In this document: positions 4,213-52,649 of the stretch, piece by piece
Position numbering within the stretch: position 1 is the first letter of the stretch
How the letters are laid out: each line of letters begins with the position of its first letter
From: Candidatus Zixiibacteriota bacterium
Lineage (GTDB): Bacteria; Zixibacteria; MSB-5A5; UBA10806
Assembly: GCA_020348065.1 (NCBI GenBank)
Contig: CP070742.1
Coordinates: 2,605,539-2,664,488, forward strand
Direction of reading: 5' to 3'
DNA length: 58,950 nucleotides
Notes under the pieces: model-generated
Seen by the model: the letters and a program-made list of their open reading frames with translations, nothing else
What the model was told of the DNA's origin: nothing
The model's database searches: none
Program-made: the position numbers and the translations under genes

Positions 4213-4494
4213 CTAAATAAACTCGTAGAGCTCCTCGAGCGGCATGATGGGGTAGGTCTCGCATTCCAGCGCCCCCAGCGTGCCGATCATGGTGGTAAGC
4301 TCAAAAGCGGTATGTAGATCCGGGGCCTCGGTTATGAAAAGCAGGTCGTATTGGCCCATAACGGCGTAAGCATTGAGGATTTTTGAGTCCTTTGCCATGA
4401 ACATCCCGCCGAGCTTCTCAAAGCTTTTTTTGGCCTCTTTTAAATTTTTCTTGGTCTCGATTGTCCCTCTGGCCAGTACCGCAAATCGGGGCAT
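4213..4494 (-). CDS. GYD-domain protein
   Basis: A 93-aa protein of the GYD family (small alpha/beta ferredoxin-like fold, function unknown). Diagnostic segments are GQYDLLFITEAPD and the C-terminal ALECETYPIMPLEEL. The start is chosen as the ATG at 4494, because AGGAGT lies 5 nt before it, whereas the in-frame TTG at 4500 is too close to that site. The gene stands alone between the sod terminator and the tRNA-Arg region and is transcribed towards sod. Confidence 0.82.
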   Translation of the reverse strand: MPRFAVLARGTIETKKNLKEAKKSFEKLGGMFMAKDSKILNAYAVMGQYDLLFITEAPDLHTAFELTTMIGTLGALECETYPIMPLEELYEFI

Positions 4495-4699
4495 AACCAA
4501 CTCCTTTCACTTTTCGGCGGCCAGGAAAAATTACATGTCTCCTATCGCCTTTGCTTCTCCCAAGACGAGAACACCGAGCCGTGCCATGATATTAGGGGTT
4601 TTGGGAAAATAGTTCAAGGGGAAAATATAAAACACTATTATCTTGCCAATATTAAAAAGCGCTCTTATCTTTTTATCGAAAAGCAACTTTCACGCGTGC

Positions 4700-4718
4700 C
4701 GCAGCTTGTTGTGACCGC
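4700..4718 (+). repeat. Hairpin repeat, TT-loop/CCGC family (copy 1, imperfect)
   Basis: CGCAGC-TT-GTTGTG pairs with two G-T wobbles and is followed by ACCGC. It has the same architecture as the copies at 4733-4753, 40661, 52325 and 52363. Confidence 0.5.
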
Positions 4719-4732
4719 TGCGAAACCGAGTT

Positions 4733-4753
4733 GCGGTCATAATAAATTATGAC
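4733..4753 (-). repeat. Hairpin repeat, TT-loop/CCGC family (copy 2)
   Basis: Read on the minus strand: GTCATAAT-TT-ATTATGAC followed by CGC. Perfect 8-bp stem. The arm sequence is identical to the copy at 40661. It lies 23 nt upstream of tRNA-Arg(CCG). Confidence 0.7.
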
Positions 4754-4776
4754 ATGCATCAGCGCGTAAAGCATCC

Positions 4777-4848
4777 GCCCCCGTAGCTCAGAGGATAGAG
4801 CGTCGGCCTCCGGAGCCGTGTGCGGCCGTTCGAGTCGGCCCGGGGGTA
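4777..4848 (+). tRNA. tRNA-Arg (anticodon CCG)
   Basis: Full cloverleaf: acceptor GCCCCCG / CGGGGGT plus discriminator A (first pair G-T), D-stem GCTC/GAGC, anticodon loop CTCCGGA with anticodon CCG, T-arm GGCCG-TTCGAGT-CGGCC. The outer anticodon-stem pair is a T-T mismatch. No CCA is encoded. It is flanked on both sides by palindromic repeats. Confidence 0.93.
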
Positions 4849-4961
4849 TTTTTTTAGGCCGGCAATATGTTCCTCATTCTGTTTCCCAAGCGGCGTTTGG
4901 GAACCAGGTAAAAACTGCCGGTAAAGCATGCCGCCACGGACCACCTGCTCAATACCCGGTA

Positions 4962-5081
4962 GGCCAGACATTCTTGTCTGGCCGAAATTTGGATTACGGC
5001 ATTAAAGGACAGACAGGAATGTCCGTCCTCCCATATGAAAAACCTCTTGGGTTTTCCCGGCGCCCCAAAGCTTGCTGTGGG
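4962..5081. repeat. Cluster of intergenic hairpins downstream of tRNA-Arg
   Basis: The 4849-5168 gap holds no gene I can support. It contains a perfect 9-bp hairpin GGCCAGACA-TTCT-TGTCTGGCC (4962-4983) and a near-inverted relative GGACAGACA-GGAA-TGTCCGTCC with one mismatch (5007-5028). It also has an A/T-rich hairpin at 5037-5056 and CCCAAAGC-TT-GCTGTGGG with one mismatch (5064-5081). They look like dispersed palindromic elements rather than terminators, because none has a T-run. Confidence 0.65.
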
Positions 5082-5168
5082 TTGGATTCAATAAACCTAC
5101 ACATCCAATTTTCAATTGACAATCCATGCCCCGTTTACGTACCCTGCCTGCAGGGAAAGGGAGATGGT

Positions 5169-5864
5169 ATGGCGTCCATTGAAGCGATCATAGAACGGCA
5201 GTTGAAGCGCTGGGAGCTCCAGCAGCAGATGCTCAAAGAAAAACCAAAGGAGAAACCGCGGCTTCGTCCCATAATCACCGTATCGCGCGGGTATGGGGCG
5301 CACGGGGAGGAGGTGGCGCGAAAACTTTCGGAGCTGACCGGTTTCCAGTTGCTCGACCGGGAAATCCTCGATGCCATCATCAACGATATAGGTATCCAGA
5401 ACAAAATGGTGGAGCTTTTCGACGAGGACACCCGCTCCGAACTGGAATCGTGGTTTTACGGCATGATCACCGGCCGTATCGTCGATAAATCGGATTACCT
5501 GAAGTCGCTTACTAAAACTATCGGATCCATTTTGAAATACGGCGAGGCGGTTATAGTCGGACGTGGGGCCAACGTTATAGTGGGGCAGGATAAAGGGTTC
5601 CATCTCCGTGTCACGGCCTCGATGAAAAGGCGGGCTAATACCATAGCTGAACGGTTAGGAATCTCATACGAGAAGGCTTTCAAGCAGATAGAGGAAAGCG
5701 ATAAAAGAAAAGCCGCCTATTTCAAAAAATCGTTTGGCGTCGATATAAACGATCTCACATTATATGATCTGGTGATCAGCACCGATAGTCTCAGCGTCGA
5801 TGATGTCGTGGAGCTGGCGCTTCTGGCCTACGGCAAAAAAGAGCGGGCGCTCTGGGGCAAATGA
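5169..5864 (+). CDS. Cytidylate-kinase-like family protein
   Basis: 231-aa P-loop kinase-like protein of the Cytidylate_kin2 type. After a charged ~35-residue N-terminus comes ITVSRGYGAHGEEVARKL, the modified phosphate-binding loop, then LLDREIL, the regulatory-lid helix region and VIVGRGANVIV. The C-terminal half has helical segments ending in DLVISTDSLSVDDVVE, the usual terminal strand and helix. The substrate of this branch is unknown; it is not the canonical cmk. Start: the ATG at 5169, preceded by AGGGAAAGGGAG. The open frame continues upstream through the tRNA and repeats, which cannot be coding. Confidence 0.85.
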   Translation: MASIEAIIERQLKRWELQQQMLKEKPKEKPRLRPIITVSRGYGAHGEEVARKLSELTGFQLLDREILDAIINDIGIQNKMVELFDEDTRSELESWFYGMITGRIVDKSDYLKSLTKTIGSILKYGEAVIVGRGANVIVGQDKGFHLRVTASMKRRANTIAERLGISYEKAFKQIEESDKRKAAYFKKSFGVDINDLTLYDLVISTDSLSVDDVVELALLAYGKKERALWGK

Positions 5865-40389: not shown

Positions 40390-40463
40390 TACCCCCGGCC
40401 CGACTCGAACGGGCGACCTGCGGTTTAGGAAACCGACGCTCTATCCTCCTGAGCTACGGGGGC
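40390..40463 (-). tRNA. tRNA-Arg (anticodon CCT)
   Basis: Acceptor GCCCCCG / CGGGGGT with discriminator A, anticodon loop TTCCTAA, T-arm with TTCGAGT loop. The acceptor stem is the same as in tRNA-Arg(CCG) at 4777, including the terminal G-T pair. No CCA encoded. Confidence 0.93.
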
Positions 40464-40802
40464 GTAAAGCCAATATACGCTGCATCGTTGATTAAGTCAA
40501 TATGAGAGAATGAATGCGGATCATGCGCCGCCAGATCAATTTTATACGGCGAAAATGTAGGCGGCCATTTTTTTTACGGCGTCAGGAACCCATTCCTGAT
40601 ACCAACCATACCCGAAGGGATCGTGGGCGGTCGGCTTATCCGGCCGTAATCTCGCCGCGTGTCATAATTCATTATGACCGCGAACCAGGTTTTAGTGTCT
40701 CCCGGACTTGATCCGGGATTCATAATCGCCGGCCCTCATGGATTCCCGATCGGTCGACCCGGCGGCTCCCGACGGGTTAGAGATTTCGGGAATGACAGCG
40801 TA
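40464..40802. repeat. 339-bp intergenic region packed with palindromes
   Basis: No gene seen. Hairpins: TCAGGAA-CCCA-TTCCTGA (40582-40599); GTCATAAT-TC-ATTATGAC followed by CGC (40661-40681), same arms as at 4736; TCCCGGA-CTTGA-TCCGGGA (40700-40718); long-range ATTCCCGA / TCGGGAAT (40742-40749 and 40786-40793). The last two resemble dispersed intergenic repeats seen in many bacterial genomes. It lies next to tRNA-Arg(CCT). Confidence 0.65.
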
Positions 40803-52298: not shown

Positions 52299-52324
52299 TC
52301 CTAAAATATATTTCATAATGCATA

Positions 52325-52443
52325 TCGCAATTTATTGCGACCGCATATACCTTGCCGTGCGAGTCACAGCTTGCTGTGACCGCAAAATGGGCGTGCGAAT
52401 TTTGCAATATGCCGTCAGGCCACGCTTCGCCACGACCTGACGG
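52325..52443. repeat. Hairpin-repeat cluster upstream (+) of tRNA-Pro
   Basis: In the 52299-52575 gap, which holds no gene I can support: TCGCAAT-TT-ATTGCGA followed by CCGC (52325-52344); GTCACAGC-TT-GCTGTGAC followed by CGC (52363-52383); GCAAAAT / ATTTTGC (52382-52388, 52399-52405); CCGTCAGG / CCTGACGG (52412-52419, 52436-52443). The first two belong to the TT-loop/CCGC family found beside both tRNA-Arg genes. Confidence 0.7.
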
Positions 52444-52575
52444 AACTGGCAAATGGTGGGCGGTAGAGTATAATTGATATCCGCCTTGGGGCGTCAGGAT
52501 GTCATTTATTCTATCCTGACGCATAACGAATTCGTTTTCATATTTAATCATTTCGAATCAAAAAAGATGAAAATA

Positions 52576-52649
52576 TCGGGGCGAGAGGATTTGAACCTCC
52601 GACTCCACGGACCCGAACCGTGTGCGCTACCAGACTGCGCTACGCCCCG
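52576..52649 (-). tRNA. tRNA-Pro (anticodon CGG)
   Basis: Acceptor CGGGGCG / CGCCCCG plus discriminator A, anticodon loop TTCGGGT between CACGG and CCGTG, T-arm GGAGG-TTCAAAT-CCTCT. No CCA encoded. Confidence 0.93.

Follow-up and report, generated by a model that had tools for sequence, protein, structure and literature searches.

The closest described systems are the REPtrons, REPINs and BIMEs of Pseudomonas, Stenotrophomonas and E. coli, in which, according to the accessible parts of PMC2817692, PMC3116915 and PMC3686654, a RAYT gene is flanked by palindromes, the palindromes are dispersed between genes, and inverted doublets, compensatory changes and several systems per genome are found. 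The short hairpins described here, from a member of the Zixiibacteriota with a single-contig genome of 3.74 Mb (G000), share all of these features and differ in a few others: the foot is TGCG or TGGG instead of GT[AG]G, it pairs with the 3' side, one base is bulged, GTC/GAC is conserved and the copy number is modest, whereas REPs usually have more than 100 copies (PMC2817692, accessible part). Because no GT[AG]G tetranucleotide marks the 5' foot (TGCG in 35 of the 59 copies with flanks, and TGGG in a relative), we class the family as a RAYT-associated REP-like variant and not as a canonical REP.

Three further systems are comparable. Subclass 2.6 (Bacteroidetes) and class 3 of the TnpAREP proteins also combine a RAYT-like gene with flanking repeats that lack GT[AG]G, but the RAYT found here, P0001, keeps the equivalents of residues W94, Q95, E100 and R104, a region that is not conserved in subclass 2.6, and the foot of class 3 is CnGA (PMC6006769, accessible part). 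The E. coli REP resembles our element in having an interrupted hairpin, the bulge of which is recognised by TnpAREP, and a motif 5' of the hairpin; there the stem has two mid-stem mismatches, here a one-sided single-base bulge near the foot (PMC8266576, accessible part) and a nearly invariant TT loop. The CGTC-tagged REP superfamily likewise consists of short hairpins that are often heterodimers, but has loops of 4-5 bases, according to the accessible part of PMC3733652; membership was rejected, as the element has a loop of 2, no CGTC tag and an associated RAYT. A literature search pairing "Zixibacteria" with "repetitive extragenic palindromic" (one wording, subscription journals aside) returned no paper.

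The window, i.e. the whole stretch of 58,950 nucleotides that was analysed (G000:C1:2605539-2664488), contains three tRNA genes, which are its only matches to known RNA families, and five hairpins for which a common plan had been proposed in the preliminary description (Table 1). A degenerate pattern, RTCRYARYTTRYTRYGACCGC, matched all five with 0-1 mismatch; a sixth match (56597) had 3 mismatches and was dropped, as only 5 of its 8 stem positions pair. Shuffled versions of the window gave 0.13 matches on average and 1 at most. Since the pattern was derived from the five hairpins themselves, the whole genome is the fairer test, and there, with up to 3 mismatches allowed, the pattern matched 85 times and its reversed version 12 times. 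The common plan is thus real and the five hairpins belong together.

Table 1. Coordinates of the hairpins, neighbouring genes and compared intervals (window numbering for the tRNA genes, the REP-like hairpins and interval 40661; genome numbering, G000:C1, for the others).
Feature	Position	Strand	Remark
tRNA-Arg(ccg)	4777-4848	+	neighbour, outside the element
tRNA-Arg(cct)	40390-40463	-	neighbour, outside the element
tRNA-Pro(cgg)	52576-52649	-	neighbour, outside the element
REP-like hairpin	4693-4719 (pattern match 4698-4718)	+	inner stem GCAGC with wobbles; left half of inverted doublet
REP-like hairpin	4733-4758 (pattern match 4733-4753)	-	inner stem ATAAT; right half of doublet
REP-like hairpin	40657-40682 (pattern match 40661-40681)	+	inner stem ATAAT, loop TC
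REP-like hairpin	52320-52346 (pattern match 52324-52344)	+	inner stem GCAAT, 5' foot degenerate
REP-like hairpin	52358-52385 (pattern match 52363-52383)	+	inner stem ACAGC, bulge A
P0001 (RAYT gene)	248487-249158		copies at both ends
Element near P0001 gene	249173	-	just upstream
Element near P0001 gene	249217	+	just upstream
Element near P0001 gene	248561	+	overlaps 3' end
Interval without copies in G001	40661		about 80% identical DNA
Interval without copies in G001	2358270		about 80% identical DNA
Interval without copies in G001	3452336/3452424		about 80% identical DNA
Interval without copies in G001	2340648		about 80% identical DNA

When folded as DNA, the segment 40646-40690 formed the bulged hairpin with a stability that none of 200 shuffles reached (z=-3.7), and for 52315-52395 one of 200 shuffles was as good. 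The doublet beside tRNA-Arg(ccg) was weak in this respect (4687-4766; 11 of 200 shuffles as good, z=-1.8) and not convincing, its left hairpin taking another register in the 80-nt fold. The two halves of this doublet start 35 nt apart, have their tags outward and are unlike each other, and the two hairpins near tRNA-Pro are neighbours in the same orientation.

Across the genome, a covariance model found at least 60 sites at E<=0.01, a floor, since scoring was limited to 150 of 1316 candidates; of the 60 sites, 30 are among its 31 training copies. The merged and filtered set comprises 76 elements in 56 clusters (the 85 pattern matches minus 13 in which at most 5 of the 8 stem positions pair, plus 4 matches of the model). 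The broader pattern GTCN5TTN5GACCGC with 2 mismatches was useless, as it matched 1105 times against 1181 in the control. The palindrome is multi-copy and mainly intergenic, 29 of the 31 sites examined for gene context being located between genes (11 convergent, 15 tandem and 3 divergent, with 1 inside an ORF and 1 at an edge; some of these sites are neighbours of one another). Convergent gaps make up 4,567 of 33,257 bp in control stretches that were evenly spaced and not cleared of elements, at least two of them containing some. The copies at 3585432 and 3586756 (G000:C1; loci L021 and L024) share about 40 bp of one flank but not the opposite flank, which would fit duplication of a larger unit.

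Most copies form a bulged hairpin of the form TGCG-x-GTC-N5-TT-N5'-GAC-CGCA, and 31 copies align without gaps. Flanks were analysed for 61 of the 76 elements, two of which lack full flanks. In the remaining 59 copies the foot contains GCG in 50 and the stem is followed by CGC in 53, while at x, the single unpaired position between the outer and inner stem, 30 copies have T and 29 have A or C. The loop TT is nearly invariant, and the half-sites GTC...GAC are conserved and almost perfectly symmetrical. The CCGC described earlier as a constant flank is indeed shared, but it is not an unpaired flank: it consists of the final C of GAC plus CGC, and as CGC pairs with the 5' GCG in most copies, it is partly the 3' strand of the outer stem.

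The compensatory variation that had been noted in the window holds for the 31 aligned copies, in which inner-stem pairs change on both strands. None of these copies has a broken pair among the innermost five, and at four of these five positions both bases are changed in 8-12 copies. We counted 69 cells with both sides changed, against 30.4 (sd 4.1) in shuffles, a number that 0 of 500 shuffles reached, and 87% pairing in register against 25-56% when one strand was slid along the other; the copies were picked by a pattern with R opposite Y, which favours pairing, and the shuffles keep this constraint. The slide control weighs more, because relatedness of the copies inflates the shuffle statistics, and the covariation is partly due to shared descent of a few subfamilies. 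The subtype with inner stem ATAGC has 11 copies, nine of them with identical cores. Beyond CGC its locus-specific arms are complementary to one another at 42 of 55 positions, where 33.4 are expected (P=0.001), with pairing at or below chance further out; in the same test arm pairing in the other subtypes was weak (P=0.03-0.04). The arms of the ATAGC copies could have arisen in any of three ways: the element inserted where a palindrome already stood, an imperfect palindrome was repaired, or a longer hairpin was favoured by selection.

The suggestion to look for a RAYT was productive: the P0001 gene has family copies at both of its ends. The protein scores 108.5 bits with the model for REP-associated tyrosine transposases (NF047646, cut-off 80) and also matches PF01797 and PDB 4er8; assignment to an IS200/IS605 insertion sequence was rejected (NF033573, 23.9 bits, cut-off 55). 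H61-x-H63 and Y143, the predicted HUH motif and catalytic tyrosine, are invariant in all seven aligned RAYTs, and W122, Q123, E128 and R132 align with W94, Q95, E100 and R104 of E. coli TnpAREP (4er8), the roles of which are treated in the accessible part of PMC6006769. The reading frame of P0001 continues through its downstream element (L036, 1120-1217), so that this element may encode part of the C-terminal end of the protein. An automatic finder of matching flanking hairpins misses the P0001 locus, as its hairpins differ and one is inside the ORF.

P0001 is not the only Y1 transposase of the genome. There are eight such ORFs by PF01797, one of them below its cut-off, and all eight exceed the cut-off of NF047646; with P0001 as query 10 places were found in its own genome. 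A RAYT of the P0001 type is present as a single copy. At least three of the seven other RAYT-model ORFs are flanked by other repeats (L031, L034 and L035). The RAYT in L031 (1282-2166) is flanked on either side by four hairpins, which are arranged in inverted pairs and belong to a GTAG-tagged type (CCGGGGTC). Family elements are also found about 370 bp from the RAYT in L034 (element 2837660) and about 830 bp from that in L038 (element 2150604), so that proximity alone cannot single out one transposase.

Some repeats of other types were observed in the window. Beside tRNA-Arg, at 4958-5032, there are two facing hairpins (GGCCAGACATTCTTGTCTGGCC and GGACAGACAGGAATGTCC), and a similar hairpin is present in L035. 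Positions 40696-40800 hold a repeat of about 100 bp with 13 further partial copies among the matches listed and others in G001, a genome of the same genus; it contains a hairpin, CCCGGACTTGATCCGGG, that by eye resembles CGTC-type REPs. With one pattern no CGTC-type palindromes were found in the window, though CGTC-like hairpins are visible by eye.

Among 117 relatives, the covariance model found the element in all five members of the family and in none of the 112 others, with a model trained on G000 and stricter filters, by which copies with other inner stems would be missed. The two genomes that have a RAYT of the P0001 clade carry 48 and 19 copies; the other three, in which the best match is much poorer (E 9e-11 to 9e-15), carry 8, 4 and 12. 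The phylum of G000 agrees with five genomes of its class (G010, G026, G036, G088 and G111), which at the loci compared have the same sequence as contigs named candidate division Zixibacteria or Candidatus Zixiibacteriota. In a tree of 113 RAYTs P0001 belongs to a clade of six rows, all from genomes of its class (SH-aLRT 95); the tree was a quick one, without a mixture model and with 10 of 123 rows omitted as duplicate, short or broken, L037 and L038 in it are one gene, and one of the genome's own RAYT ORFs is absent from it.

Hairpins in the same frame, with other inner stems, surround three of the five other RAYTs of the clade (L094, L095 and L096), as TGC[GC]-footed hairpins of the form GTCAGCCC, with loop TT in L094 and L096 and, in L095, a stem one pair longer and loop CC. 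Of the remaining two, L123 is flanked by no hairpin that could be recognised as an element, and L093, which has a stop, adjoins a TGGG...CCCA palindrome (by eye). A further RAYT, L124, is truncated where its contig in G003 ends, and an element lies 11 bp from it. Of six loci in G004, five have GGG/CCC as outer stem and one has GAG/CTC, with matching changes on the two sides.

Inverted doublets, the arrangement known from REPINs, recur: 89 sites include 11 pairs within 80 bp that have their tags outward, against one tags-inward pair (at the RAYT) and one same-orientation pair (in the window), while by this count most copies are singletons. Partners differ more than expected. In the nine doublets with two well-formed hairpins the inner-stem Hamming distance sums to 21 against 12.8 (sd 2.9; P=0.0035), and in 11 hand-listed doublets, of which one includes a hairpin that is not in the element list and another a degenerate hairpin, to 25 against 15.7 (P=0.003); identical inner stems occur in 0 of 9 doublets against 1.9 expected, which is not significant by itself (P=0.12). 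Other elements pair with a longer CCACGCC hairpin. A preference for heterodimers is known from other REP families (PMC3733652, accessible part).

Comparison with G001 also points to mobility. Copies are missing from G001 in all four syntenic intervals that could be assessed, among them the hairpin beside tRNA-Arg(cct), which is located in DNA absent from G001. None of these four intervals showed an exact insertion junction or a target duplication; the alignments are gappy (the missing piece at 2340648 measures 2.7 kb) and the gaps take in other repeats as well, so that deletion in G001 is possible. At 2346716/2346750, 2356387, 3453094 and 52324/52363 synteny breaks and the copies could not be assessed. 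In the window this break is within 52303-52535, at the two REP-like copies before tRNA-Pro, and its flanking blocks map to about 2.54 Mb and about 0.965 Mb of G001. The P0001 locus is syntenic on one side only, G001 having other sequence there, and G001 carries 8 copies of its own. The family is probably mobile.

The preliminary description also held that the hairpins are concentrated at, and make use of, tRNA-flanking DNA. Inside the window hairpins of any kind are concentrated there (6 hairpins in 1,247 bp of tRNA gaps against 3 in 2,697 bp of other gaps; by a cruder gene call, 4 in the three tRNA gaps and 3 in ten other gaps), but this does not extend to the genome, where outside the window 29 tRNA gaps with a total of 11,854 bp contained 21 hairpins of any kind (1.77/kb) and 89 other gaps with 29,779 bp contained 62 (2.08/kb). 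A copy of the family is located within 500 bp of only 4 of the 44 tRNA genes, among them all three in the window; outside the window it is 1 of 41 (tRNA 1978967-1979040, with a copy about 15 bp away), and 1 of 53 clusters is in a tRNA gap. Random intergenic placement predicts 1.4-2.5 of the 56 clusters in tRNA gaps and 4 were seen, with a Poisson chance of at least 4 of 0.24 or 0.05 before allowing for a test that the window itself prompted. The higher expectation follows from a first gene call (24.5 kb in 41 tRNA gaps, some clipped at stretch ends or inflated, and about 556 kb of intergenic DNA) and the lower one, a low estimate, from a second (13.1 kb in 29 gaps outside and three inside the window, and about 520 kb), gap lengths being approximate since genes were called by a home-made codon-score method. 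Among 44 tRNA genes and 56 clusters there is thus no clear genome-wide excess beside tRNA genes, while the copies do share flanks as had been described. Mobile elements with a preferred insertion beside tRNA genes, suggested by the copies at all three tRNA genes of the window and at one further tRNA, are rejected on these genome-wide counts and are highly improbable; copies occur near tRNA genes because tRNA gaps are intergenic DNA.

Other explanations place the function of the hairpins in regulation or in RNA. Conserved GTC...GAC half-sites with near-perfect symmetry are what one might expect of palindromic operators of a DNA-binding regulator, yet the inner pairs vary on both sides, unlike a fixed dimer site, divergent gaps hold only 3 of the 31 examined sites, and three copies at the RAYT ends and the recurrence of doublets do not fit, which makes operators extremely improbable. 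Very unlikely, too, are intrinsic terminators or mRNA-end hairpins kept for an RNA function and not for mobility: the excess in convergent gaps (11 of 31 sites) and the stable hairpins at two of the three places in the window agree with them, but no T-run terminators were seen in 4400-5200, the sole stretch scanned, a terminator has no need of a shared sequence foot, and the association with a RAYT speaks against them as well. A secondary RNA role could still exist beside mobility.

The hairpins might also be fossils, i.e. true REP-like elements of a system that is no longer mobile, in line with the degenerate copies (52324 and 4698), the many singletons and the single RAYT of the P0001 type. 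We consider this unlikely in view of the nine copies with one identical ATAGC core, the HUH motif and tyrosine predicted in P0001 and the presence or absence of copies between genomes of the same genus. The proposal of structure-driven, REP-like elements fared better, with one plan genome-wide, compensatory stems, a RAYT with copies at its ends and presence or absence relative to G001. Together with the hairpins at other RAYTs of the clade and the doublets, these observations lead us to conclude that the hairpins are very probably copies of a RAYT-associated REP-like element that was spread within the genome by P0001, mobilisation by this particular transposase being what we infer.

Under this REP/RAYT reading the hairpins would be short non-autonomous DNA, spread by an HUH/tyrosine single-strand transposase encoded elsewhere in the chromosome. 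The transposase would bind the single-stranded hairpin via the conserved foot (TGCG-x-GTC), the bulged base and the TT loop, and would cut and rejoin at the ends of doublets. The inner five pairs would be free to drift as long as pairing is kept, the halves of a doublet would diverge so that each folds alone, and copies would accumulate in intergenic gaps, above all convergent ones. Rather doubtful at present is the idea that the foot is written twice, the 3' CCGC being a cleavage or target tetranucleotide that is matched by a 5' guide, with guide and target co-evolving; it is suggested by the pairing of 5' TGCG with 3' CGCA and by a relative that reads TGGG/CCCA or GAG/CTC on both sides.

The repeats at all three tRNA genes of one window illustrate how chance sampling can produce a conspicuous local pattern. 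If the foot does act as guide and target, the guide-target code of IS200/IS605 would be readable from sequence in a RAYT system, and the complementary arms of the ATAGC subtype would be a trace of the insertion reaction. The findings give the Zixiibacteriota, a little-studied phylum, a REP/RAYT pair whose foot is non-canonical and paired into the stem, and the fixed and free positions of its hairpin, which can be read from natural variation, yield direct predictions of what the transposase recognises.
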